A stretch of 64,000 bases of DNA. Origin: Mesaphorura yosii. Lineage: Eukaryota; Arthropoda; Collembola; Poduromorpha; Tullbergiidae. The position numbers and the translations under genes are program-made. Numbering within the stretch: the first letter of the stretch is position 1; every line of letters starts with the position of its first letter. Below, piece after piece: positions 3,971 to 48,300 of the stretch. The stretch covers positions 19,334-83,333 of the forward strand of contig WIXG01000339.1 of assembly GCA_009869945.1 (NCBI GenBank). Reading direction: 5' to 3'. Below the pieces are notes generated by a model. The model ran no database searches, was not told where the DNA came from, and saw only the letters and a program-made list of their open reading frames with translations.

Positions 3971-5874
3971 TAGATGCAGAGAATTCAAATATACATTGAA
4001 ATCTAGACACAAAGGTTAAGAAAGTACTGGAGGTCCCGAGCTACTGGAACTAGGAGTCGTAGGAGTCACTATTCTATCAAGAAGCTGTCTTAACCATGTT
4101 CCACATATTAAATCTACAAAACATTTTCTAAATCTTGAGCCTGCCACACAGTAAATGATGAAGTTGAGTGAGGCCTGAAGGACGGACGAAAAAAGGGGGA
4201 CACAGGACAAATCGCCTAGAAGAAGAAGTGTGTCTGGCTCCACATTGAACTCAGTGATACTCAGGAATAAGATGAGTAGAAAGTAGACTACCCAGGGGAA
4301 CATACAGATTATGAAGACGGACACGGTTGCAATCAACATGGGAGTCACAGAGTCCGGTTCGACCTCGTTCTGTCTCAGCTCCGCTCGTTCAATTCTTTGC
4401 TTCCTGTTCTTGACCAGTGTCAACATATTCAGTGGGCACACAACCAACATTGGGACGATTAGCAGAGTGAGGACATTAGTAAAGACAACGAGTGACGTAA
4501 TCCACTTCATGGCCGGATCACTGGATCCGGGAGAAGAGCTGCACCCGAATAACGGGGTCCATATGAATGAAAAGACACGTATCAGCGTACAAAAGATGAC
4601 GACACCTCCAATTAGAATTTTCTTGTGTGCCCACGTGTTAAATGAACGAGCTTTCAGAGGATACGCCACAATGATGTATCTCTCGATTGTGATGACCACA
4701 ATGAAGTAAACGGAGAATGAGGCTGAGGTATACAACAGCTCTAACAGGATGAAATCTTGCAGTCGACAGTTCTCGTAGCTGTAGCCAAGTAACCCTCCCA
4801 GGCCACCAGCAATGTTGATGGTGACCAACGTGAAGCTATCTGCGAGTTCCAAGGCAATGATGAGTGCAGTGACTGGGGAAGAACGCAGACCTGGCTGAAG
4901 GCAGACAATGATGGAGAGTGTGTTTCCAATCAATCCAAAAAGTGACACAATGAAAATACCCCAAGTTCTAAGCTGGATAATGATCTGGATTGCTATTGCC
5001 CCCATGTTATGTCATGGACAGATGTAGACTTTACGCACAGACACCAGGGTTGCAGACTGATTTATATCAATGATCTTTTTGATTTTTTCGTCAAACGCTG
5101 GGTTCCGATGAAAAAGGCATTTTTTTAAAACAAAATCCGGTCAAACTATGAAAAAATCGATGAATTTTTTGTGAAAACATCTAATCTTTTTTATCTTTTC
5201 AGAACACATCAAGATTGAAAAATTTCCCTCTCTACACATTCAAAATTTTAAAATTTTAGATTTTGGACTGGACGTTTGAAAATTACTCATTAATTACTCA
5301 TCACGGACAGAATGGAGGCAAATTCCGGGTGGTTTGGCAAATTTCCCCTTTAAGGATATGTATAAAAAATATTTGAAGAAATACTACAAAGGATTAGATA
5401 TTTGCTGTTTATAGTGGAAAATTGATAAATAAATTAACAAAAAATGCGATGGACTTATGAGGAGCGATTTGTTAATTTTTTTGACGTATTTTGTGGTTTT
5501 CGAAAAGATCAGATATAAATCAAGAAGATCGGATCTTTTGATATTTTTGCAAAAATCACGATCTTTTTCAACATTGACACACACTTCACACACTACACTG
5601 CACAGATCAGGTCAGTATACATACTAATTGTGTTCGGATTAGTCCTGACTGCGCTCGATCATCGAGTCTGCATGTGAATAAATTAAAAACGTGTTTGGAC
5701 AGTTTGACTCTACGAATACAATGAACGAGACGAAATTCTGAGAAATTACAATTTGACATATAAAGGACACCAAGTTCCAGGTTTTGTTCTCATCAGAAAT
5801 ATTGTTCAGATTTCGCTTCACCAAAATGCAGTCGCTTAAATCGCACTCAAATGATGTCTTGATATTTTAATAAC
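3971..5874 (-). repeat. Inverted segmental duplication, left arm
   Basis: This 1.9-kb segment matches 38565-40410 in inverted orientation. Homology covers the GPCR coding region, about 50 bases of its 3' flank (including TGTGTCTAGATTT on the gene strand) and about 870 bases upstream of the start codon, ending at GTTATTAAAATAT. Upstream identity remains high with small indels, so the copy is of genomic DNA and not of a processed transcript. Confidence 0.75.
4016..5005 (-). CDS. Rhodopsin-family (class A) GPCR, peptide-receptor-like
   Basis: A single-exon gene for 329 residues with seven hydrophobic segments. It would sit in the plasma membrane and signal through a heterotrimeric G protein. 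Visible class A marks are G-N-T-L-S in helix 1, A-L-E-L-A-D in helix 2, a Cys before helix 3, E-R-Y at the end of helix 3 (I-T-I-E-R-Y, the DRY position), and a P in helix 6 (F-P-W-V-V). The NPxxY motif of helix 7 reads N-F-I-I-Y. The overall look recalls FMRFamide-type neuropeptide receptors, but the ligand cannot be told from sequence. The ATG at 5005 is the first in frame. A paralogue of 318 residues lies in inverted orientation at 39400-40356; the first ~60 residues are almost identical, while the second extracellular loop and the loop before helix 7 differ. Confidence 0.88.
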   Translation of the reverse strand: MGAIAIQIIIQLRTWGIFIVSLFGLIGNTLSIIVCLQPGLRSSPVTALIIALELADSFTLVTINIAGGLGGLLGYSYENCRLQDFILLELLYTSASFSVYFIVVITIERYIIVAYPLKARSFNTWAHKKILIGGVVIFCTLIRVFSFIWTPLFGCSSSPGSSDPAMKWITSLVVFTNVLTLLIVPMLVVCPLNMLTLVKNRKQRIERAELRQNEVEPDSVTPMLIATVSVFIICMFPWVVYFLLILFLSITEFNVEPDTLLLLGDLSCVPLFSSVLQASLNFIIYCVAGSRFRKCFVDLICGTWLRQLLDRIVTPTTPSSSSSGPPVLS

Positions 5875-30759: not shown

Positions 30760-32895
30760 CTATTTCCATTTGTTTCTCTGTTCAGTTCTGAATTGAAGCA
30801 AAATCTGAACTAAATTACCAATAAATTTCCTGCTGGCGTTCAAAAATTGTGCCAACCGCTGGAAAATTGCATGCCAATGGAAAATTACCAGCTCAGCAAA
30901 CAGAGAGGCCAAGGAAATGGCCACACAAATTGCATAAATTATAAAAACCGTTCCCGTGCTCGCGTACAAACTGAGCTTCTTAGGTTCTACGAGATTAATT
31001 AAATACTTTTCCGAGTTCCTGGAATTCTCCCGAGTAATTTCATAAATCCTGTAAAGCCAATCATGAATCCCAGACTGGACAATCTTCTGGATTTGCTTGT
31101 ATAGCTGACCTCCATCTCTCAGGTCCATTTCCCAACCATGATTTCTTGTAAGAAAACTTTCGCTTGATTTCGTAAACTTTCTCCGCATGCCTTTCACATC
31201 CTGGAGGAACGGGTCGAATTTGTGGTCATAGTCAACAAGTGCTGAATGGTCACATCGAAGTAATTGGCTGTCAATTGACTCCGAAGGGCATGCATTTTTT
31301 GGTTGTCGTAATCTTTTTCTTAAAAATGTGACATATGGATGATCAGCCGAATTTTCCAGCATATCGTCAATTAAGAACCATAAATCAGCTGAGAGTGGAT
31401 AGCAAAGCCTCCAATTTCGAAACCGATCTTGCTCAGGTTCTGGAGGACAATCGTCCAAAAATGTAACTTGATCGCAAGTACGATTTTGGTGTCCAGGATC
31501 TTGGAAGCCTTGACCAGCTTCTTTATACACGTCGAAACTTGACGTTAAAAATGGTCCAGGAGTTGAATACAATGCAAAATCTTGAAGTTCATTGAATTTC
31601 ATTACTGGAACGTGTGCTGCTGGAATTGTCATGTGTGATGTGACAATACTTTGGTAACAATTGATAAGAATGGGTGATACAAGCAACCAACCAAACATTA
31701 TGACTCGAAACAGTTGTCTGGATTCCAATTCAGCGCGTACGTGATAATTACCAAGTAAAAGTCCGTACAAAAATGCGACTGAATTGAGAAATACGTTCCG
31801 GGCGACATCTTTCCATATCGCAACGCACAATGCAGTGACCAGAATTGATACGAGTATAGAAATCCAGATGGCCCGATCAAATGGTTTGAGATAAACCCCA
31901 AAATACGATTGTGTATAAAGTGAATGACATGACACAAATGAAATGCTGGTTGTTTTAGTGACAATATGACCAGTCGAGCCAAATAACCCTAGATATCCAT
32001 AAATAACGAGTTGATTGTGGGGATCCTCCATCCCAATTGTGGGAAGAAAAGTGCGGTTTGTGTCGTTACAAATTTGTATAATGAAAGATAGCGGACCTTC
32101 AGCCCAAAGCAAGGATTTTCGGCTGGTCTGAGCATGTTTGATGTGAGGCCGGAGATGTGCCCGCCATGTTGATACTGTTTTCATGTGGTCATGCTGCAGA
32201 GCCGAGTCCACTGATATTCTGAGGCCTTGTCCATCTATGGCGACGTGTATTCGACTTATCTCCATGTGGTAACAATGAAAACAGATTGTGTAAGCTTGTA
32301 ATGGGAGATTTTGAATCTCGCTGCCACGATTACTCTGATTATATGACCCCGAAGTAAAAGAGGACATGATAAGCCGGGAGTAATCCATGTCAAATGGCAT
32401 GAAATCGGACGGACGCGCAACTTCGAGTTCTTCCAAAGCAGTTGTGATTTGAAAATGATTCGGCAGTATCATGAGAACGTAGGTTGTTGAAGGATTCGTT
32501 CCCGATTTGGTGAGACGTCCAAGATTTTCGAGCTGCCGGGAATTCGTGAGAGGCAAGGTTGAGACAAAGATGACGATCAGAACGCAATGAAACTTGTAAT
32601 GGAACATCTGTGCCAAGATCCCGGACTCTGATTCCAAGTTCCGAACCATGTCAGCATACTTTTGTACTCCAGTGAAGATTTTAATGGGACTAACACACTC
32701 TTGAATTGGTACTTGTGATTTCAGGAGTTGTCTTATATGTTCTTCGTCCAGGATAAGTGTCTCTTCGCAATCGCTGAATCCATTCATCCAGTCTTGAATT
32801 GTTAAAGCGTTATTCCCTTCCAGACGCTGTCTGCCATACGCGTTTATAAGATGAATGATTAAAAGCGTGATCAATTTAAGTTTTATTGTCGTCAT
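30760..32895 (-). CDS. Ionotropic-receptor-like protein, full length
   Basis: Intronless gene for 711 residues, starting with the ATG at 32895, followed by a signal peptide (K-L-I-T-L-L-I-I-H-L-I-N-A). It resembles the diverged ionotropic receptors that arthropods use as chemosensors: an extracellular N-terminal region, ligand-binding lobe S1 (about 240-335), membrane segment 1 (341-360), a pore region (365-385), membrane segment 2 (398-418) ending in C-Y-Q-S-I-V-T-S-H-M-T-I-P where the family has SYTANLA, lobe S2 (about 430-635), and a third segment near 645-670. I do not see the classical glutamate-contacting Arg/Thr/Asp set, which is usual for divergent members. The ligand is unknown. A truncated paralogue lies at 587-2272 and small relics at 33300-33440 and 40620-40652. 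Confidence 0.85.
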   Translation of the reverse strand: MTTIKLKLITLLIIHLINAYGRQRLEGNNALTIQDWMNGFSDCEETLILDEEHIRQLLKSQVPIQECVSPIKIFTGVQKYADMVRNLESESGILAQMFHYKFHCVLIVIFVSTLPLTNSRQLENLGRLTKSGTNPSTTYVLMILPNHFQITTALEELEVARPSDFMPFDMDYSRLIMSSFTSGSYNQSNRGSEIQNLPLQAYTICFHCYHMEISRIHVAIDGQGLRISVDSALQHDHMKTVSTWRAHLRPHIKHAQTSRKSLLWAEGPLSFIIQICNDTNRTFLPTIGMEDPHNQLVIYGYLGLFGSTGHIVTKTTSISFVSCHSLYTQSYFGVYLKPFDRAIWISILVSILVTALCVAIWKDVARNVFLNSVAFLYGLLLGNYHVRAELESRQLFRVIMFGWLLVSPILINCYQSIVTSHMTIPAAHVPVMKFNELQDFALYSTPGPFLTSSFDVYKEAGQGFQDPGHQNRTCDQVTFLDDCPPEPEQDRFRNWRLCYPLSADLWFLIDDMLENSADHPYVTFLRKRLRQPKNACPSESIDSQLLRCDHSALVDYDHKFDPFLQDVKGMRRKFTKSSESFLTRNHGWEMDLRDGGQLYKQIQKIVQSGIHDWLYRIYEITRENSRNSEKYLINLVEPKKLSLYASTGTVFIIYAICVAISLASLFAELVIFHWHAIFQRLAQFLNASRKFIGNLVQILLQFRTEQRNKWK

Positions 32896-33299
32896 TTCTT
32901 TTTGCTTTTATGAACTTTTCTTGAATATCAAAGATTCTGGTCAGATGTGCAACTTAATTTCGTAACGGATATGGCAAAACCCTTCTACAGTAAGGTAAAA
33001 AATAAGTGGAACGTATATGATGCGGGCACAATGCTTTACGTATGCGTATCTATAGTTACGCTTAACAATCGGGCGTGAAAATATAGGTAAAATCAGATCT
33101 TCATACGTTCCATTTATTTTTTATCTGTATAGTATGGCACTAAAGTCTAACACTTTGTTTTTTAGTGGGATTGTTATTTTATGCGCTTAACTTGCGTGTC
33201 AAATTGATTTCCCTTGGAGTTACGAGCAAAATATTCTGTCTCCATCCTTCACCGGATGTTTTGAATTCGTCTCATGCAAACTTGTGCCAATTGTAACTC

Positions 33300-33440: not shown

Positions 33441-33801
33441 ACATGGTTTCAAATTGTGGAAAATGTACCAATTTTTGAAGGTGGAGTTGGCCTAACTCCC
33501 TTGTAACGTTTTCAGCTGATAAAGGCCAATAAAGCAGAAAAGGGAAAGTTACAAAAAATTACATTACAAAATCCATTGATGATTAGGCTAGGTTAGCTGT
33601 TTATGTTGGTTGGAGGCAAGTCTCATCAAATCCAAGCTAAAGGTCAGGCTAGTACTCTCCTCAGTCTTAGTAGCCTCCTCACCATCACCCCGACTTTCTC
33701 TTCCCGTTGATGTATACTGCTAGGGAGAGGAGATTAACCTGTAAGCCGAGGGTTTACGCTGGATTCCAAGGCCAAAGTAAACTAATTTATTCATTTGACC
33801 G
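33441..33801. other. Gap between receptor relic and CARD-NB-ARC gene
   Basis: Likely 3' flank of the NB-ARC gene. No feature beyond AT-rich sequence was seen. Confidence 0.4.
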
Positions 33802-36800
33802 TCAATTCCAAAGCTGCTCTTCAGAGTCTGACTGGTGTGCGGGTTCCCTTGTGATTTGTTCATAGGCTTCCTTCAGCTTGCCCACAACAAGTTGTAGCGC
33901 CTCAGGATCATCGCGATTTATGCCTGAAAGAATCTTCGACAAGCGTTCTAACACAAGAATTTCCTGTAGGTGCCTAAACTTCTCATCCATTTCGTACATG
34001 ACCCTAGCCAGGAGTTTGGCTGCAGTCTCAACAAACCCAGACGATACAAGTCGCAGGAGTATTCGAAGCAAGTTCTTGCTTTTGTAATTAGAACACATGC
34101 CGATTTGCTGCTGCAGTGGAGTTTGTGCGCACTTCTCAATATCTCCCATGAACGTGCGCATCGTCTGCGCTGCCCTTTCGTCCTCGGCCTGCCTCTCCAG
34201 CCACCCCAATGTCTGTTGGCCGATTCGCATGACTAAAGAAAGAGAGCAGGGCCCCACCGCATTGGGTCCAAGTATCAATTCCATGCTGGTCGACCAGAGC
34301 TCTTTGGCTTGCTCAAATCTCCCCAAACACAGCTGAATAAGACAAGCAACGTCAAATGTTTGCATGACTGAAGAAATGGAGGTGAGATCAAAGCAGTCTT
34401 TATCCTCCAGGGTTAATTTAATCACACTCCCCATGAGCAATGCTTTACTCTCCAGCATACGCGTCCGGTCCACCTCGTTTATACTCATCAAGGAAATGAT
34501 TGGCAGACTCAGATGGTCAGCAGTTTGTGCTGACCGTTTCTTGTGGAACCGAGCCCAATCAATGGCCGAACCATTTAAGAGTTTGGTGGTGATCACATCA
34601 GTGGCAAGGATCTTGTCTATTAGTTGACCGTCCAGCAGGAGAACGTGTGAGACAGCAGCATTCAGCTCGAGTAGCTTCCCACAGCATTCAGCTTTGATTT
34701 CGTGGCCTCTCAAACCAGAAGTTTCGATCGGGCTCTTAATGATGGTCGTCAAATTCTTCCACCCAACACGAAAAATGTTTAAAAGTGCTTGCCAATCAAC
34801 TGAACTCACGTTGAGTTGAACAGGTAGCAACATTTGGTTCTTAAAAAGACGTAGCATTCCATTGACCAATGAAGGAGTTTGGCCTGGAGTCCATCTCATT
34901 TGACAGATGTCAGAAAAAACGCCGACAACCTCGTTGAGTGGCTGTTTATCCTTTTGTAGCCAGAGTGCATACGACTTCAGGAAGTCAGAAACTGTCTCGC
35001 TTCGTTTGCAATCCTGCTCAGTCAGCGATTGCTCTTGAAGGCTTAATCTGAGTTGCTGATACAGTTCTGACATCACTGCCCGCAGTTGGACAGGCGGCAG
35101 TGAACATTTTGCTTGAACTAAGAAGTGTCGAATGGCGTTGATGTAACTCAGGTTCATTTGTCTAGCTACTAAACTCCAGTCCTCCAGCTCAGTTCGTATG
35201 AAGTCGATGGCAGTAGGGAATTGTTGGGCGAGGCACAGTCCGAGCACGTATCTCAAACTCAGGACCATTCTTAGGCTCAAACCCTCTTCCCCGACTTTAG
35301 TGGGAAAGTAAAGATGAGCGTCTCCAATTTTGCCATCGTAGCCTGAGGATGTCAGTTCCTGCAGCAATTTAAGTTGAGCTTCAAGGAAGGTGGCGTAGCA
35401 TGTGCTCAAATCTTTCTCTACGTTCTCCTCTTCCACAAGACATTTCTGTATGTCCAAACCAATGATGCGGAGGTGGAGAGTTAACTCTGCTCTGAAAGGT
35501 GTGTCAATACGACTCTCATCTCCCAACATGTTGATCAGAGATGTGTAAACTTCCTCGGCCTCCTCCAGATCACGATCTACTTGATCGAAAAGCAGTTTTT
35601 GAATTCGAACCAGCTGCAGTTGGATGATGGGTAGCTCCCATTCTGCAAACACTCTCCTGAGGTGAGATATCGACCTCCTAATAAAGGAGACTGAATCTGA
35701 AGGAAGAACCTGCGCAACTTCAAAAGGAAATGAGTGACAGGTGCGCAAAATCTCGTCAAATTGTTCACTCGCCGTGTCCCAAGCGCATATAGCATGTCTC
35801 TGAAGCTCGATAAGGTTCACTCTCATACATTCGAACGCCAAATGAATTGCTCGAATCGCTCGCTCCGAGTCCACGAGCACTTTGTGCCGGATAACATGCT
35901 GAAGGAGCCGATGAATTCCAAAGTACCGGAACAGGTCAGCGAATTTCTCGAATGAGACGAGTGAGTAGACGAGCAGCTGATCCACTGCGGTACGCAGCGT
36001 CTCTTCCCTAGCGTTTGGGAGGCCAAAGAAGAGGGTCTCGGAAATATCGTTTGGTTCGCAGTACGCAGCCACATTCAGAATGACGAGACAATACTCACGA
36101 ACATCTTCCTCAATGTCCTCATCACGTTCAATCTGCTCCACTGAAAGACGAAGTGTTGCGCTGATTGTTCGCTCGTACTCGGTGAGAATCTTCTTCTTGT
36201 CCATCAGTACAAGCAAGTCTTTATGAATCGTCTTTGTGTAGCTGGCGACTGTGTATTGTTTTGATCTTAGAATAGTCGCAGCTGCGCACTGCAGTGCTAG
36301 CGGAAGGAATCCGAGTTCTTCACCCAAAGCCAGTTGCTCCGCCTTCGTCCCCGCCTTGCCCTCCGCTCCCAATGCTTTGGTCAGCAACTCCACACACTCC
36401 TTATCAGTGAAGACTCCCAACTCAAAGGTAGAAATCCGACCAAATTCGTTTGGAAGACCCCATTCGTGGTTCCTGGATGTGATGAGGGCGTGATGAGCCT
36501 CTTGTCTTGGAAGCAACTTGCACAGCCTCTCAAAACGTTCAGCATTGTCGAATATGAACAGAGAGCGAGCACACGCTAGTTTCTCATAGATATGCATCAC
36601 AAATTCAACGGTGCTCCCAAACTCGTCTCTTTTTAATTTTAGGCGTTTTCCAAGAGCGTCGAAGGAGTTGAGCAGCGAATCGCCCTCAGAATCCATCCAC
36701 AGAATATGATCGTACTCAGCCTCGTAAGCATTTGCGTACCATTTGGCTGTGCTCGTTTTTCCTATTCCACCCATTCCAACAATTGCATGCTTCTTAGCCA

Positions 36801-37345
36801 CGATGGCAGCCACTTTACGTTCTGTGGAGAGTAACTGCTGGCGGAGGTGGTGCACGAGAAGGCCTCCTTCTTCGTCGCTACGTGGTACGAAGGACGTGAT
36901 GAGTTCCTTGTGCTCTGGCCACCACTTCTGGAGTAAAACTCCCACTCTGCCCTGCTTTGCGCGTGTCGGGCCATCGTCGTCGGACAGGCTTTCATATCCA
37001 AACTCCTCCACAGCAGAACGAAGGATCTTCCAAAGTGGGGCTTTTGATTTCTCTTGGCGGAGGAATGCCAGAACAACGTCGAAGACACGAACTGATCTAA
37101 GATCAGACCCAAATTAAATCAAAGGCAATGCGCAGGTTACAGGTTGCTTACTTCTGACTAAGAATGTCCAACAGGTATCGACTTTTTTCAGACGGTGTTT
37201 GCAGGCAGTTGACCCACTCCTTCTCTTCGACCGTGATGCATTGCTGGGTGAAGAGTCTGTCGACAAGTGACGAGCAGAAGAATCCACCACTGACCAACTG
37301 TTCGTAGCAGAATTGGTAGATTTGCGGTATTTTTGGCGAAGTCAT
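33802..37345 (-). CDS. CARD / NB-ARC protein (Apaf-1/CED-4-like NTPase, no visible WD40)
   Basis: Two exons, 37345-37152 and 37096-33802, with a 55-base intron, give 1162 residues. Residues 1-95 form a death-fold domain of CARD type (L-V-D-R-L-F-T-Q-Q-C-I-T-V-E-E-K, later P-L-W-K-I-L). The NB-ARC follows: P-loop G-M-G-G-I-G-K-T-S-T-A (~171-181), a kinase-2 strand L-F-I-F-D-N-A-E (~244-251), a T-S-R motif (~271-273), and F-L-P-L-A-L (~328-333). These build the nucleotide-driven switch that lets Apaf-1 and CED-4 oligomerise and recruit caspases. The remaining ~700 residues look helical and Leu-rich; I see no WD40 repeats, LRRs or clear TPRs. It may be an apoptosome or inflammasome-type sensor; activity is inferred. 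The second Walker Asp is followed by Asn rather than Asp. Surroundings are receptor genes and relics. Confidence 0.85.
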
Positions 37346-38564: not shown

Positions 38565-40410
38565 GTTATTAAAATATGAAGACATCATTTGAATACGATT
38601 TAAGCGACTACATTTTGATGAAGCGAAACCTGAACAAACCTGGATCTTAGCGTCCTTTATGTGTCAAATCTGAATTTCTCAGAATCTTGTCTCGTTCATT
38701 GTATTCGTATCGTCAAAATGTCCATACACGTTTTTAATTTATTCACATGCAAAATCGATGATCGAACGTAGTCAGGACTCATCCGAATACAATTAGTATG
38801 TATACTGATCTGATCTATGCAGTGTAGTGCGTGATGTGTCTGTGTCAATGTTGAAAACACATCGTGATATTTTCAAAAATATCGAAAGATCCGATCTTCT
38901 TGATTTATATCTGATCTTCTCGAAAACCGCGAAAATACTTCAACAAATTAAAATATCGCTCCTCATAAATCCATCGCATTTTGAGTCGCGTCGCACTATT
39001 AACAGCAAAATTCTAATCGTTTTTAGTATTTCTTCAAATATTGTTATGAATATCATTAAAGGGGAAATTTGCCCGACCAGCCTGAATTTGCCTCCATATT
39101 GTCGGTGATCAGTAATTAGTGTGTAATTTTCAATTGTCGGGTCCAAAAATCTAAAATTTTAAAATTTTGAATGTAGAGAGGGAAATTTTTTAAATTTTAA
39201 TGTGCTCTACAAAGATAAAAAAGATCAGATCTTTTCACAAAAATTGCATCCATTTTTCATAGTTTAACCAGAATATCTTTAAAAAATGCCTATTTAACCG
39301 GAACCCAGCGTTTGACGAAAAATCAAAAAGATCATTCATATAAATCTGTCTGCAACCCTGGTGTGTGTGAATGAAGTCTATATCTGTCCATGACATAACA
39401 TGGGAGCAATAGCAATCCAGATCATTATCCAGCTTAGAACTTGGGGTATTTTCATTGTGTCACTTTTTGGATTGATTGGAAACACACTCTCCATCATTGT
39501 CTGTCTTCAGCCAGGTCTGCGTTCTTCCCCAGTCACTGCACTCATCATTGCCTTGGAACTCGCAGACAGCTGCACGTTGGTCACCATCAACATTATTTTT
39601 GGCCTTGGAGAGTTGCTTGGCTACAGCTTTGATGATTGTCGACTGCAAGATCGTATCCTGGAAGAGCTGTACGCACTCTCGGCCTCATTCTCCATTTACT
39701 TCATCGTGGTCATCACAATCGAGAGATACATCATTGTGGCTTATCCTCTCAAAGCTCGTTCATTCAACACGTGGTCGCAAAAAAAAATTCTAATTGGATG
39801 TGTCGTCGTCGTTTGTACGCTGCTACGACTCTTTTCATTCACATGGAAGTGGTTATTGGAGTGCAATCCTCAATATACGGACTCGATCAGGTTACTCGCC
39901 AACTACATTAATGCCTTCACTCTGCTAATCATCCCAATGTTGGTTGTATGTCCAGTGAATATATTGACATTGGTCAAGAACAGGAAGCAAGCAATTGAAC
40001 GAGCGGAGCTGAGACAGAACGAGGTCGAGCCAGACTCTGTGACTCCGATGTTGATTGTAACCGTGTGCGTGTTCATACTGGGTATGTCCCCCTGGGTAGT
40101 CTTCTTTCTACTCCACGTATTCTTGAGTATCATTGACTTCAATGTGGAGCCAGACACACTTGTCCCCGTTTTTTGGTTCATCCTTCAATGCTCACTCAAC
40201 TTCATCATTTACTGTGCGGCAGGCTCAAGATTTAGAAAATGTTTTGCAGATTTAATACGTGGAACACGGTTAAGACAGCTTCGTGATAGAATAGTGACTC
40301 CCACGACTTCCATCGAACTCACTTCCAGTAGCTCAGGGCCACCAGTACTTCCTTAACCGTTGTGTCTAGATTTTCATGTATATTTAAATTCTATGCATTC
40401 AATATGTGTC
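38565..40410 (+). repeat. Inverted segmental duplication, right arm
   Basis: Inverted copy of 3971-5874, holding the second GPCR with its upstream ~835 bases and a short 3' flank. The left border is at GTTATTAAAATAT, shared with the other arm; sequence outside is unrelated. The arms are 32.7 kb apart. Confidence 0.75.
39400..40356 (+). CDS. Rhodopsin-family GPCR, paralogue of the 4-kb gene
   Basis: A single exon for 318 residues with seven hydrophobic segments, the I-T-I-E-R-Y end of helix 3, P-W-V-V in helix 6, and N-F-I-I-Y in helix 7. The N-terminal ~60 residues are the same as in the 329-residue copy, as is most of the third intracellular loop (E-R-A-E-L-R-Q-N-E-V-E-P-D). Differences concentrate in the second extracellular loop (only W-K-W-L-L-E-C-N remains of a longer loop) and before helix 7, where about ten residues are missing. 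Such changes in ligand-facing parts would fit altered ligand choice. It is intact, with no stops. Ligand unknown. Confidence 0.88.
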   Translation: MGAIAIQIIIQLRTWGIFIVSLFGLIGNTLSIIVCLQPGLRSSPVTALIIALELADSCTLVTINIIFGLGELLGYSFDDCRLQDRILEELYALSASFSIYFIVVITIERYIIVAYPLKARSFNTWSQKKILIGCVVVVCTLLRLFSFTWKWLLECNPQYTDSIRLLANYINAFTLLIIPMLVVCPVNILTLVKNRKQAIERAELRQNEVEPDSVTPMLIVTVCVFILGMSPWVVFFLLHVFLSIIDFNVEPDTLVPVFWFILQCSLNFIIYCAAGSRFRKCFADLIRGTRLRQLRDRIVTPTTSIELTSSSSGPPVLP

Positions 40411-41329: not shown

Positions 41330-44300
41330 TCACTGGTGACTGGCCGCCGCCGAAGGTCTAAACACGACCGGTCTGAACTCTCTGCTTTTCCCCGCTCCGT
41401 GGTAGGGTCGAGGTTGGAGAGCGGAGGAGTTGAAGGTGGTTGGTTGGTGGAGTTCTGCTGGGTGTCTGTAGTTCTGTGATAGAAGTGAACACGCCAGCCA
41501 TTTTAGCGATAGAATGACTAAAATTATGGAAATTACAAGCTCACACTCACCTGCGCCCCACCACCCGTCGTGATTAGAGAATGGCTCTCTTGTTCGTAGT
41601 CCCCATCGTTATTGTAGGGCTCTGGAGTGTGGACTGCTGCTGTAGGGTTCTGCTGGAGGCTCAGTGAACTCGACGCCCTGCTCGGCCCCGTTATCTGAAT
41701 TACTGAACTACCACCTGCAGTAGTTTTCTGCTGCGCCCACTCCCTCCTGTAGTTATCTGAGATTAGAGAGGACGGTCCAGAGTGGAGGCTGGAGCGGTCG
41801 TCCCCGGGCAGGAGGAGCAGGTTGGATGCAGAACCGGAGTGTCCTGAGAGCGGGGAATTCGAATTTAAAAAGCGAACTCTCAACCGAGACTATTTAAGAC
41901 TCTTGTGTTACAACTCACTGCTGCTGCCTCCGCCAGCCCTCCCCGCCGGTATCTCACAAACCACTTCAGGGTGACGGTAGGCTGCTGGGGGTGCCCTTCT
42001 TCCCTGCCTTCCTCCGAGATGGGATGAGGAGGCCCTGCTGTTGGAGAGCAACTCACTGGAGGAGTCGCCACCATACCTTAAAACAAAGGAAAAGATAATG
42101 AATGACTATGAACCATGAAAACCTACACGCAGAGTACACGCAAAACGGTGGATAAAGTACTATTGTGAAGGGCACGAGCCTTCTGTCAAAATCCTCCACC
42201 ATTCTCCACACCATTGTGTGCTTAACCCCCTTTGTTCTGCTCATTCTAATTCGCACATACAATGCTAATAACGGGCTGACAATACTGAATTGAAGACTGA
42301 GAATGGCTGGGATTGAAAAGGAGCTCAGGGAAGCGTGACGGGTCTGACAAAAGACGAAGGTATTTGCTCGAGAGAGTCTTCACGACTCTTTAAGAGAAAA
42401 AGTGAGTGCCAGAAACGAGTGTGATTACCTGCTCGACGACGACGGTGCTCCTCCTCCGACCCGCACCTTGACACCAGGCTCCCTGCTGCAGTAGTCCCAG
42501 TACTGCCTCGCCTCCTGCCTGTACTCGGAGAGCTCCTGCGTCTGCAAAGCGGGGTCCGAAGTTTGTGAGGTTCCGTTCCTCCTCCTACTCGCGTGGATGA
42601 GTTCTCGGCGGAGGTCAACAGTGCTGCTGGATGGGGCGCCTTCCGGTTCTAGGCGTTTCTGGTGGTTGCCTAGCGGGGCACTTGTATGGCTGGAGCCACC
42701 GCTGCTACTGTTCGAACTCTTCCCCAGGAGCGGACTGTGACTGTTGACGATAGACAAGACGGTCGTCCCTCCAGAGAGCACCGCCGATGGCCCCGCAGGG
42801 GTTTGGGATCTGGCCGCTGGATTGTCCACGAAGATCCTCGAGTTGCTCGACTCACGGTTACCCTGCCACGGGACGACCCTCACCACAGCCGCCACACTCT
42901 GCTGCTGCCTCTTTCTCTCAAACTCCTCTTCCACCTCCCTCATGCGCTCTAATTCCCTTAACCTCTCCATCTCTCTCTCCTCCGCCTCCATCGCTAATCT
43001 CTTCTCAATCATCTTCCTCTCGAGTACTCGGAGAGTGGACTGGAACTTGAACTTTTTGCGGCGGGCTGCATCAGCGAAATTTGATGTTGGAAGTTGCTGC
43101 TGCTGGGGCTCTAATACGTAGGGTTCTTCTAGTAAGACGATACTCGGGTCGTATTTAGATGGTTTGCAGACAAGAGACAGATTCTCCACACTCTTCGCCT
43201 TCCCCCGTTGCTGCCTCGTACTCGAATCGGGCAAATAAATCGAATTCCTAGAGAACGGCCTCCTCCACCCCCTACCATAGCTCTTATAAGGCAGGCTACT
43301 CGGTCCGTATCCAATGTCTGATACGTTAGAGTGGAACTCGCCCATGCTGCGCGTTGCGTCCTCTTCAGACTCCCAGCCGTCGGCTGGGCTCCGTTGCGAT
43401 ACCTCCCTCGTGTTTAGCATAAAGTTGACTGGGGCAGAGGAACCGAACCCAGCCGACATCATGCGGAGGTTATTTAAAGAGTTCGGTTCGGATTTGCTGA
43501 GAAACCAGTTGGCGTTCCCAAGCCCGGTATGGTGCTTCGATCGCTGGTGGATTCGGCGGAGGCTCGGCTTTGCAGTCTTATACTCTAGATTGAAGAAGCT
43601 CGTATCCATTTCAGGATGTTCCTCCTCTTCTGTACTACTCTCATCCAAATCCTGCTCCGGTGTCCAGCACTTGACTAATGGCACTACAGCTTCAGGGACG
43701 GCGGGCGAGTCCCCTGCGCTTATGCCCGAGTCCCCGGACCTCTCATTCCTATTCTGCTGCAATACTGGATGATAACCCTCCTCCGAACTCAAACTTCTCC
43801 CTGGGGGGGAATCCAGCGCCCTCCATGCAGAAGAGGGAGAGAACCGGGGGAGCTCTTGCTTTTTTATGGGGAGTACGGGGCGGAGGAGCACGGCGGGGAT
43901 GTCCAGCTCTGAGCTTGATAGGGAGCTCTTGCTGTAGTCTTCGAATGTGCCCGAGTCTTGCCGAGTGTGGTGATCGGAGTCGGAGTTGGGGTGGATGGGA
44001 GGTGGTGGTCGAGGCTGTGATGGCCCCTGACCCGGTCTTTCTTTTGCTACACTCTCACCATGTCTGTTATCAGCTGAACGCTGACTCGGTTGACTACTGG
44101 CGCAGAGGAGCCTCTCACTTTTCACGTCGCGGAGTGGTGAGTTGACTCTCTGCTGGGACTCACGGGAGGAGGGCCGTTTTTCATTGCTCTTCATTTGACT
44201 ATCTCGAAGGTCTGCTGCTCTTTTGTCTCTGTCATTCTTTGAAGCTGTCTTGCTCTGCTGCTCCGTACCGGCGGAGCGTGACGGAGACGAGCGCTGCAAC

Positions 44301-45355
44301 TCTGCGCTCATCTTGTTACTATTCTGACACCTCACCCTCATCGTATTAACCGTACCCTCTTCCTCCATGCCAAAGTAGAAGGTGCGCTTTTGTACTTCGG
44401 TGTTTGGGGGGAGGTCCTCATCGGAGCTGGAGGGGTTGTCAGTCTTCGTGTGGCTCCCGTTCAGTGGTGCGGAGGCTTCTTCGGGAGGAGGAGGGCGACG
44501 GGAGGAACTCGATTGAGGAGGGCGGGAGGATGGTTTGGAGACCCGGTCGCGACTAGGTTTCGATGCTCCGAGGAGCGGGGTGACTACAGCTGGTGTTTTC
44601 AGCTCGAGAATTGTAGTTCTCTCCCTCTTCAAATCCAATTCCAAGGATGTGTCCTCTTCCCGCTGCTTGGATGAGGAGGATGACGAAGGTCTACCTTCGT
44701 TCTTCGTCCTGAAAAGTCTTTCCTTCTTCGGGGGCTCCCGACTCGATGGATTTCTTTGCTCGTAGGAAGCGAGTCGGATCCCTTCGGTGATCAAGGTTGT
44801 GCCCTTCTGCTCAACAGCTCCTGCTGCAGCCTGTGATGGTGGAAGTGGAGCGCTGCTCTTTTTCCTCCCCTTCACCCTACCGCACTTTCCCGTAGGGATG
44901 GAGGGGTTTATCACCGAAGAGTCCGGCTCGCTGTCCCTCCTCCTTCCGCTCTTGACCGCTTCAGCAGCGACAGCCGCCACCAAATTAGGAGTGGACCGCC
45001 CAGACCCCAGATTCGACCCCCTCACAAGACTACTACACTCACTTCCGGTTGACAAGTCAAGCTCATTCAGTCTTCTCCCCGAGATGGTCCCACCATGCAT
45101 GAGGATTTTCCCGTTCTCCGTCGACTTTAACTTTAAATCTTTCTTGCTGACTTTAGAAGGTAATACTAAATGTTGGGGCTGGACGAGGAGGGGGTGATTC
45201 GTAGGCGTTCGTGGAGAGACAAGGAAGTTGTTTGAAGGGGGAAAGTAGGCCCGATTCATCCTGGAGCGGTGATGCCCATCCTGCTCGACCGGAGCCCATT
45301 TGGATGCGATGGGGGCGTGTCCTACGTGGACGGTGGAGGAGGAAGAGTTGCCCAT
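41330..45355 (-). CDS. Large, probably N-myristoylated disordered protein with coiled coil; family unknown
   Basis: Four coding exons (45355-42429, 42076-41919, 41843-41551, 41473-41330) give 1173 residues. A further 5' non-coding exon is implied by the acceptor TTTTCAG just before 45365. The N-terminus M-G-N-S-S-S-S is a textbook myristoylation signal, so membrane attachment is likely. Most of the protein is rich in Ser, Pro, Arg and Glu and looks disordered, with proline-rich stretches (R-P-P-P-P-I-H-P) that could bind SH3 domains. Residues ~770-815 form a strongly charged coiled coil (repeated E-R-E-M-E-R-L-R-E-L-E-R). A short conserved-looking motif, Y-R-Q-E-A-R-Q-Y-W-D-Y-C, sits near residue 950. 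I do not recognise the family; a membrane or cytoskeletal scaffold is the natural guess. It is clearly a gene: 2.9 kb open, with phase-matched downstream exons. Confidence 0.75.
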
Positions 45356-48300
45356 TCTTCAACACCTGAAAATTGAGGGGGAAATTGATTAATTAGTAGC
45401 GCCTAGTAATAGTTTGGGCTGCGAATTTCAGAACGCATGAGTTTCTGACAGCGAACCATTGACAATAATACGCGTACGCTTTTGCGGCGGTTTGCGCAAT
45501 CGTGCATTTAACCTGCATTCATTCAAGTTGCTTAATAAATGTACTATTTACGTGATATTATCATATTAAATGGGTTCTGTGAATGGCTCTCATTATTATA
45601 CAGTGTTGAGGTGAATTATTTCTCTGCGTGTACTTAAATACTTAAATAGTGCAATCATAATTTATGCAGTGTTTAACCAACACCGGATTTGAGCACGCGC
45701 AATATGCGAGTTGCGTAAAGTAATAGAGTACGGCCGGTCGTACCGCCACCAACTCCATCTCGAGGTCGGTCGAGCAAAGGTGATGGACAGCTAACAAACA
45801 CCATAAACACAGTTTCGGGCCTTCTGTGCAAATACTAAATACAGTGTGGGAATTATATTCCCTCGAGACCATTCCTGACCCGATTCTCACGCCTTCTCCA
45901 CTGTACTCGGTGTGTATTTGCATTGTGCACACATTTCTCACACTTCCAACTGCTACGCCGTAATTTTAATACTTTACGGCCGACACTTCAGTACCGTACT
46001 CATAATTTGCACGAGGAGCAGCGGATGTTGGTGGCTGCCCCGGTGAATTTTTTCTCGTTTTGCGTAACGTAGATATGAATCGAAGGAGTCGTAAGGATTC
46101 TCAGGACTCCTCTTGTAAACAAATTCCTCTCGGTAAATTACTCTTTGTAAGAGTAGCGATTGCGTCATCCCCAGCGTGAGTTCCTTCCTCCGATAACGGA
46201 TTGATTTTACATGAGTGATGCGTTTGTGAGCGTCATGGTCGCGTTGACAAATTGGGGAAGCGCAGCGAGTGTAGTGGTCATGCAATCGCCTCCGATCAGA
46301 GAGGAGAGTGCGCGCGTTGTGCAAAAGCTCGTCCAAGAATAGACCGCAACAACAATGGGGCTCATCGACCAAAAGAAGAAAAAAAGCAAAATCTCGAGCA
46401 CAGCTTCTGCACAATTTCGCACTCTGTGGCTTCGATCTTCCACTCATGACTAAGAATGGCTAACGATACGCCGTTTAGACAGAAGTGCGACAGTGCAGAA
46501 GCGAGGAGATGCTGAAGCGAGAGTGGAGAATCGTTTCGCCAACTTCCCCCCGTGCTTGTTTATAGCGGCCGCTTTGAAAAAGAAGATTCGCATTTCGAAG
46601 GACAATGCACTCTTCTTCCTCTGACGAGAGAGCGAGAGATGCTGAACGGAGAGTGCTGTTTGAGCAGTTTTATCGTGTTTTACTCCTCAGTAGCATCTTC
46701 GCTGCGGCGTCGGCGGCGCTGCCAATTGGAGTGTAGAAGGACGCGACTCGGGCAACGGTATTTATGAATCTCTCAAGAATTTGATTCAAACTGTTTTTCG
46801 CTCAGAGTATGGGCGCGACTCATATGAGGGAAATTTGAGGATGGTGGGCCCTTTGCGAATCGCAATAAGAAATTAATTTTTTGAGGCAACAGTCTTCTAA
46901 CTCGCACCTACAATTCGCACGCACTCGCGAGAAAAATGGATCGGCATTATGAAATGACTCCATTTCGCAGACTCATGTGAAGCAGCAGTCGAGAATGACA
47001 ATGGAATAATACGCGAATTAGCAAATCGTTTTTAATTAGCGAGATTACATCACTGCCTAATTCATGCACTTCACTCATTCGTAGAGTTAATTTATACGAT
47101 GAATTGAGAGCGGTAATTAACACAATACAGTAAAGACAGTTTTTATTGTGGATGACTCTGCTCGCGGAGCCGTGTGAATCCGTTTTTATGTAGTTTCGTT
47201 CATCGAGGCATTTTTATTTCTATGGCTCTCGGAGGAATTTTGTGATATTCGTATTTTTAATTAGTTTGTCACTCATCAGGAGGGTGGAGTGTGCTATTTC
47301 TTGCCAGACTGCAGGAGTCATCTCGTGGCTGGGTTCAAGGCTCAGCGTCGACTTCCTCCTCTTCATCCACTTACAACAACGAAGGGCCTCCGCCCAACAA
47401 AAAAACCAGAGCGTCCAATCTTAAATGAACAATCGCCGCAGACGAACGCTGCACTTTCATTTTCGAATATTAAATCTGGATCGACCACTCGCACTTGTTC
47501 TCTCGAATTCTTAATATCGAGTTTATGAATCAAATGGACTCTCGTTGAATTGTTTGCCGCTCCAATCACAGATTTTCATGCACGCAGAATTTCATCATGA
47601 TCGTATTAAATAGTCACGATCAACGACGGCGGCCATCCGCCGCTCTCCTGTCCCTAGTGCACATTTGCAGGCCTCAGCTTCAACTCAATCGAGTGGCCAT
47701 CACACGAAATCCACTCGCCCTCTCCAACGTGTGACCTCCGTAGTGATGATAAATTCAGAGGTCGCTCGCAAAAATGGAAGGCAGTGTGCCAGACGTACTG
47801 TGTATGTTTGTGGATTATTTGGCAGTAAAACTAAATTGATGGTTCCCACACTTGACTCGATTGTGCACATTTGCCTCTCCGCTGCGGAAGAGTCATAAAC
47901 CCCATTGCCACTTTAATGAACAAACTACACTTTAACGACCATTTTAGTAAATGCTCTAACTAAAAAGGTTTTTACGAGATGGTTAAAAGAGTACAGCATA
48001 GGAGCTTGGAGTATCTCATGACTCTGCAGACGTGTGCTCGAGAATTTCATGCATACACCATGCAGTGAGGGCCAAAATTGCAATTACTCTGCTGCACCTG
48101 CAATGAACGTAAATCAATGACCCAAATCCCTCTCTCCTTCGCATGCGAAAAGGAAGTGTGCAAGACTGTGTGTGAAGCACCGGAGTTCCTCGCAGTTAAT
48201 TGCTGTATTATTGGAATTTGATAGCCCATAAGTTAATACTTTCAGAATGAATTGTTCGCACTGCTGACAACAGATTCGAATCTCAACACGAGAGAAGGAC

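Follow-up and report, generated by a model that had tools for sequence, protein, structure and literature searches.

The CARD-NB-ARC gene of the window

The stretch of DNA analyzed here, called the window below, comprises 64,000 nucleotides (nt) of contig WIXG01000339.1 (C339) of the springtail Mesaphorura yosii (assembly GCA_009869945.1). Its reverse strand carries a predicted gene of two exons for a protein of 1162 amino acids (aa) after splicing, in which a CARD is followed by an NB-ARC switch, a winged-helix region, and a long tail; all features given in this section lie on the reverse strand. Exon 1 (37152..37345) opens the reading frame with the start codon and supplies the larger part of the CARD; it comprises 64 full codons plus two bases of the codon that the intron interrupts. 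It is followed by a 55 nt phase-2 intron (37097..37151, GTAAGC..CTTAG) with GT..AG borders and by exon 2 (33802..37096), which is open over more than 1000 codons, encodes the end of the CARD, the NB-ARC, the winged helix and the tail, and ends with the stop codon TGA. An AATAAA polyadenylation signal (33786..33791) starts 10 nt past the stop codon. The exon junction falls at residue 65, inside the Pfam match to the CARD (residues 25-81; E 5.2e-6; 26.8 bits, with a cut-off of 23.9). Because this match crosses the junction, the splicing of exon 1 to exon 2 is supported, and the joining of the two exons is supported further because six further loci of the same family have a CARD exon that is homologous and carries a phase-2 donor (see below). 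A preliminary description of the locus had proposed a CARD-like domain joined to an NB-ARC through a 55-base intron. The exons, the GT..AG borders, and the CARD over the junction were all found, and, as far as the sequence can tell, a genuine two-exon CARD-NB-ARC gene is confirmed. WD40 exons downstream of the gene were also considered; we judge them to be excluded, as the frame closes with TGA, followed by AATAAA, and the next frame is ionotropic-receptor-like.

The NB-ARC nucleotide-binding switch covers residues 169-385 (36136..36786; Pfam PF00931, 4.1e-10, 39.8 bits). Three glycines and the lysine of its P-loop GMGGIGKT (36754..36777) are invariant in all eight aligned members. The same is true for F, D, and N of SLFIFDN (36544..36564), which we take to be a Walker B-like motif, for I, T, and S of ITSR (36472..36483), presumably RNBS-B/sensor-1-like, and for the complete LPLALQ (36289..36306), which we read as a GLPL-type motif. 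The winged-helix region, residues 403-471 (35878..36084), matches DUF7779 with an E of 5.2e-4, which is under the Pfam cut-off, and includes IHR (35908-35916), presumably an MHD-like motif, the His of which is likewise invariant in eight of eight. The tail of about 690 residues (33805..35868) belongs to no known family, leans to alpha-helix by composition, and is probably the sensor. With a death-fold effector (the CARD) and an NB-ARC, both over the cut-off, and a long variable C-terminus, the protein has the plan of an NLR-type (STAND) protein in the broad sense.

An expanded NB-ARC family and a separate Apaf-1

In the source genome (93.0 Mb in 1127 contigs), 52 NB-ARC matches were merged with 42 exon-2 matches, which resulted in 59 loci. 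One of these is Apaf-1, and about 58 remain. These numbers are lower bounds, given that only the best candidates were scored; they include fragments, and a few of the weaker matches may be foreign to the family. Open frames of at least 400 aa are present at 43 of the 59 loci and frames of at least 900 aa at 16, and 8 of the 42 exon-2 matches contain a stop inside the match. The preliminary description had raised the question of whether the gene is one of an expanded family distinct from a single Apaf-1, and this is indeed what the genome contains. The arthropod nature of the genome shows in 66 matches to Chitin_bind_4, a cuticle-protein family of mostly arthropods; a fruit-fly COI protein and a stretch of 67 bases of 18S had no match in it, a result without meaning on its own. 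The family loci are often found on small contigs; the contig of the window, C339, also holds ordinary animal genes, namely SNF2 as well as weak PRKCSH-like and weak DUS3L-like matches.

A maximum-likelihood tree of the NB-ARC was built from 40 rows, comprising the 27 own loci that were long enough, 10 bacterial sequences, AfsR, and two Apaf-1 sequences. The 27 own loci form one clade (support 96/90), with Apaf-1 outside. Within this clade, the window gene belongs to a subfamily of nine loci (100/98), and the other 18 loci group together at 80/81. The tree was midpoint-rooted, the long branches of AfsR and of the two Apaf-1 rows meet, and the branches of L075, L076, and L054 are long, too. Because of the midpoint root and the meeting long branches, the deep placements are unsure. 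Among 11 proteins of the other group that were scanned, seven (L043, L046, L048, L049, L050, L052, and L053) contain TPRs over the Pfam cut-off, and none was found over the cut-off in L051, L054, L056 (a locus that is cut), and L057. When eight proteins of this group were aligned, the alignment matched TPRs of the kinesin light chain in the PDB (about 1e-16).

The preliminary description had held that the protein is neither Apaf-1 nor CED-4, and the profile searches, the tree, the tail, and the existence of a separate Apaf-1 all bear this out. An orthodox Apaf-1 is located on contig C277; it consists of a CARD, an NB-ARC, an APAF-1-like winged helix, APAF1_C, and WD40 repeats, and it matches mouse Apaf-1 at 1e-55. 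The window protein shares with Apaf-1, as with Dark and CED-4, the order of CARD, NB-ARC, and winged helix, but it lacks APAF1_C and the WD40 propellers, both of which are present in the C277 gene. In addition, the CARD of the C277 gene is, by eye, split at a different place than the CARD of the window family. The window family is a multigene family, its closest NB-ARC kin is not Apaf-1, and a one-to-one orthology with Apaf-1 or Dark was not found. CED-4 differs from the window protein in that the latter continues for about 690 aa past the winged helix.

When the profile of the window subfamily was compared with the PDB, the matches were the bacterial regulator AfsR (4e-10) and the plant protein Roq1 (4e-4), whereas no Apaf-1, CED-4, or Dark was found at E<=1. 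A hidden Markov model (HMM) of the family gave 155-182 bits for eight of 11 bacterial loci and 120, 101, and 51 bits for the other three, versus 58 bits for AfsR and 18 bits for the Apaf-1 of the same genome; the 11 bacterial loci had been fetched with the family profile and are therefore a favored sample, which does not affect the PDB search. The nearest prokaryotic relatives found are L067, a TIR-NB-ARC-TPR protein from a metagenome-assembled genome of the Oscillospiraceae, and L068-L074 from the intracellular bacteria Paracaedibacter, Odyssella, and Caedibacter, which are NB-ARC-Sel1 proteins (four were scanned). Among the sequences compared, these bacterial NB-ARC-TPR/Sel1 proteins are the best-scoring NB-ARC relatives outside the source genome. 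However, the identity is only 23-31%, no CARD was found in the five of the 11 loci that were scanned, one of which has a TIR, and, being bacterial, the genes are without introns.

A conserved switch and a fast-evolving tail

After the winged helix, the window protein contains no Pfam family over its cut-off. None of the eight aligned tails of the subfamily matches WD40, LRR, TPR, or any other repeat family of Pfam at E<=1, and the profile of the eight tails has no match in the PDB at E<=5. The view that the tail is devoid of WD40, LRR, and a clear TPR pattern, already put forward in the preliminary description, thus agrees with the family scans. A profile-profile comparison of the tails with TPR yielded a probability of 1.9%. 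With a TPR HMM of our own, the tail of L034 ranked first among 216 sequences (E 0.0038), and the window tail ranked 24th, among the shuffled sequences. The content of glycine and proline is 5-8% in the eight tails, in contrast to 13% in the WD40 part of Apaf-1, and the helical periodicity is 1.19-1.48 times that of shuffled sequences, versus 0.85 in the WD40 part of Apaf-1. Both composition and periodicity, assessed with hydrophobicity and propensity tables, suggest that the subfamily tail leans to an all-alpha fold. A degenerate TPR-type solenoid would be plausible from the position of the tail; the tests for it were negative or weak.

The window subfamily shows a mean pairwise identity of 46% for the NB-ARC and 39% for the winged helix; for the tail, it is 20-23%. 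The contrast is also observed among the recent duplicates L032, L034, and L035, which differ by 0.20-0.25 synonymous substitutions per site (dS). For the three pairs of this trio, the ratio of nonsynonymous to synonymous substitution rates (omega) is 0.17, 0.45, and 0.25 in the switch, compared to 0.59-1.0 in blocks of the tail, so that the difference has the same direction in three of three pairs. The tails of the trio contain no stop in 570 aligned codons, versus 22 stops expected if about 454 substitutions had been unconstrained (the minimum in 300 simulations was 10). The tail of the trio appears to have been kept open while its residues turned over, a pattern that would be expected of a recognition surface.

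N-terminal modules and candidate signaling partners

A homologous CARD exon is found upstream of the NB-ARC exon at L029, L032, L034, and L035 as well as at two broken copies, L039 and L047. A scripted check identified the AA/GT phase-2 donor at the homologous lysine in the window gene, L032, L035, L039, and L047, and the introns of the latter four are 101, 104, 77, and 94 nt long, respectively. By eye, L034 has the same AA/GT phase-2 donor, and L029 has a phase-2 donor one codon further. Altogether, the arrangement of CARD exon and phase-2 donor is present in seven family loci, including the window, with two of the six other donors judged by eye. The joined exons of four of these loci (window, L035, L047, and L029) were scanned with Pfam, and those of the window and L035 exceed the CARD cut-off.

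Other members of the family have a Death-like domain at the N-terminus. An HMM built from three such N-termini (L030, L036, and L051) also matches L046 and L009, as well as the second domain of a CARD gene on contig C171, for the latter with an E of 8.6e-7 (the best of 800 shuffled sequences reached 0.02). This C171 gene (L023) combines a CARD and a Death-like domain in one gene, and we liken it to an adaptor of the RAIDD type.

Caspase matches are present on eleven contigs of the source genome. The gene on contig C895 is a CARD-caspase; the intron in its CARD occupies the same phase-2 position as in the NB-ARC family, and, by reading, it has a QSCRG active site. The CARD genes on contigs C284 (L021) and C171 have the same phase-2 split. 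Just past the split, these two genes contain GSQPH and DGTQPH, and four CARDs of the family contain the similar stretches DGTQPH, DGTQLH, and GNQPH; the CARD of the window protein itself does not have such a stretch. In a tree of the CARDs, which are too short for more, nothing but pairs was resolved. As a single case, an NB-ARC match (reverse strand) and a caspase match (forward strand) are arranged head to head on contig C800 (15837-19432), with about 2.3 kb between them.

Neighboring genes in the window and on the contig

The preliminary description had placed the gene among fast-evolving receptor genes and relics. With 16 family proteins as queries, tblastn (E<=0.01) turned up no further relic of an NB-ARC gene anywhere in the window, and relics of this kind are not supported there; the other NB-ARC loci of the contig are left of it. 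There are three of them, at C339:9225-14693, all on the reverse strand, and they include L046, one of the proteins with TPRs over the cut-off. Next to the window gene is a single frame of 715 aa (30763-32907, reverse strand) with a Lig_chan match just under the cut-off (9.1e-7), which is divergent and ionotropic-receptor-like. Two copies of a rhodopsin-type G protein-coupled receptor gene lie in opposite orientation at 4019-5011 (reverse strand) and 39394-40353 (forward strand). They share 76% protein identity and 84% DNA identity over 1.9 kb, and represent an inverted duplication about 35 kb apart. An open frame of 977 aa (42428-45358, reverse strand) matched no Pfam family at E<=0.001.

Interpretation and alternative explanations

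We consider it probable that the window gene, with its CARD, NB-ARC, winged-helix region, and tail, belongs to a family of NLR-type (STAND) receptors that has expanded in this arthropod, and that its product recruits a CARD-caspase. In the resting state, the tail would be folded back on the ADP-bound switch and the protein would be autoinhibited. A ligand, presumably of microbial or damage origin, would be sensed by binding to the variable tail, whereupon the NB-ARC would swap ADP for ATP and then oligomerize. The clustered CARDs would attract an initiator caspase through its own CARD, the C895 gene being a candidate for this caspase, and cell death or inflammatory signaling would result. Members with a Death-like N-terminus could reach the same caspase via the CARD-Death-like adaptor encoded on C171. 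That the locus resembles an immune sensor rather than an apoptosome had been suggested before, and the expanded family, the conserved switch, and the fast tail indeed fit a sensor better; the immune role itself is one that we infer.

Several observations weigh against this interpretation. At the N-terminus, the joined exons of L029 gave no CARD match in Pfam and those of L047 remained just under the cut-off. The CARD exon is present in five of eight long members, L030 and L036 have a Death-like N-terminus instead, and no domain was found in the search of the N-terminus of L033. The Death-like domains are under the Pfam cut-off or missed by Pfam, the Death-like HMM gave 0.3 for the domain of L021 on C284, which is no match, and the N-terminus of L050 was not among the matches listed. 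The tree placed only 27 of the 58 loci, and its other rows were bacterial sequences, AfsR, and Apaf-1. The preliminary description had announced a helical tail of about 700 residues. The length is right, but the helical character amounts to a leaning in composition and periodicity: the strand value was slightly higher in two of the eight tails (L032 and L033), the TPR controls were mixed, and AlphaFold models computed from a single sequence were of low confidence, with a predicted local distance difference test (pLDDT) of 40.7 for exon 2 and 40.8 for the tail. Lastly, the winged helix of the trio is fast as well (omega 0.59-0.96), the trio proteins end at differing places (L032 82 columns and L035 39 columns before L034), and, because the omega of the tail is at or below 1, relaxed constraint on a tail with an open frame is possible.

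Of the alternative explanations, the one that survives best, although we regard it as unlikely, is that the expanded NB-ARC family serves a different purpose, for instance allorecognition, the defence of the genome from transposons, or the control of endosymbionts, and has kept CARD signaling. Such a purpose is favored by the roles of NB-ARC proteins in fungi and bacteria, which include allorecognition and defence against phages, and by the prokaryotic relatives found, among which are a TIR-NB-ARC-TPR protein and NB-ARC-Sel1 proteins of intracellular bacteria. However, the CARD and the caspase partners point to a cell-death or inflammatory output, which would nevertheless be compatible with symbiont control.

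Quite improbable, in our opinion, is a decaying family whose open frames stem from recent duplication, are under relaxed constraint, and have no present role. It could account for the omega of the tail (0.59-1.0), the differing C-terminal ends of the trio, and the stops in 8 of 42 exon-2 matches, but not easily for frames of at least 900 aa at 16 of 59 loci, for tails of the trio with 0 stops where 22 are expected, for a switch with an omega of 0.17-0.45, or for splice sites that are kept, together with the polyadenylation signal in the window gene.

Least probable of all is a divergent apoptosome scaffold of the Apaf-1/Dark type that has lost its WD40 propellers and serves ordinary developmental apoptosis: the order CARD-NB-ARC, shared with Apaf-1 and CED-4, and the presence of a CARD-caspase are in its favor, but a complete Apaf-1 exists on C277 (match to the mouse protein at 1e-55) with a CARD that, by eye, is split elsewhere, the subfamily profile finds AfsR and Roq1 but, at E<=1, none of Apaf-1, CED-4, and Dark, and eight bacterial loci of the favored sample reach 155-182 bits with the family HMM, versus 18 for the Apaf-1 of the same genome.

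Relation to known systems

As a probable NLR-type receptor, the window protein can be compared with the NLRs of other organisms. Vertebrate NLRs are CARD-NACHT-LRR proteins (e.g. NLRC4), and plant NLRs are TIR-NB-ARC-LRR or CC-NB-ARC-LRR proteins (CC, coiled coil). The plan of effector, switch, and sensor, the large family, and the combination of a conserved switch with a variable sensor are common to all of them. Unlike both, the window protein has no LRR, and it differs from animal NLRs in having an NB-ARC instead of a NACHT and from plant NLRs in having a CARD instead of a TIR or CC.

Closer in architecture are genes of non-bilaterian animals. Trichoplax sp. H2 has 42 NACHT/NB-ARC genes, 39 of which are NB-ARC genes, and placozoans are described as having many genes with a CARD or Death-like domain followed by an NB-ARC, with a C-terminus that is always TPR or WD40; these genes are likened there to the ones of Hydra (PMC6321704). 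An N-terminal CARD or Death-like domain, an NB-ARC switch, many paralogues, and a C-terminus other than LRR are found in these genes and in the family described here. The differences are that the tail of the window subfamily has no detectable repeat, in contrast to the TPR or WD40 of the placozoan genes, and that the host of the window gene is an arthropod. The TPR C-terminus of the Hydra and placozoan genes is not found in the window gene, but it is present in seven of the 11 proteins that were scanned from the other group of the same genome. For amphioxus, TIR-NB-ARC-WD40 proteins are described (PMC2575513). The proposal that the gene is the best candidate for an undescribed signaling system is accordingly not supported in this form, since the layout has known relatives, namely the CARD/Death-like-NB-ARC-TPR proteins of placozoans and Hydra (PMC6321704). 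The window gene varies an architecture that is already known and is no orphan; in arthropods, it is unexpected.

For arthropods, a survey of 2024 describes the NLRs as lacking an N-terminal effector domain and therefore considers an inflammasome possible in several phyla 'except for Arthropoda' (PMC11508797). In a comparison of arthropod immune systems from 2015, the terms NOD-like, NLR, NACHT, and Apaf are absent from the main text (PMC4833078). Our search of the literature found no account of an NB-ARC expansion in arthropods, nor of springtail or chelicerate NB-ARC, which is not proof of absence.

A broader proposition, which we advance tentatively and with more doubt than the assignment of the window gene itself, is that an arthropod lineage has rebuilt an entire intracellular immune repertoire in the style of NLRs. 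It would consist of about 58 NB-ARC receptors with a switch nearer to bacterial NB-ARC-TPR/Sel1 proteins of the defence type than to Apaf-1, with swappable CARD and Death-like modules leading to a CARD-caspase and a CARD-Death-like adaptor, and, in the window subfamily, with a novel fast tail as the sensor; horizontal transfer may have seeded it. The family would represent an animal case of NB-ARC proteins that are closer to the switches of bacteria than to Apaf-1, together with a type of sensor without recognizable repeats. A large arthropod NB-ARC family with CARD or Death-like N-termini, together with a CARD-caspase, would contradict the survey of 2024 (PMC11508797). The family would provide a concrete candidate for cytosolic pathogen sensing in an arthropod and, if the broader proposition is true, no NLR system equipped with effectors would have been known from arthropods before it.

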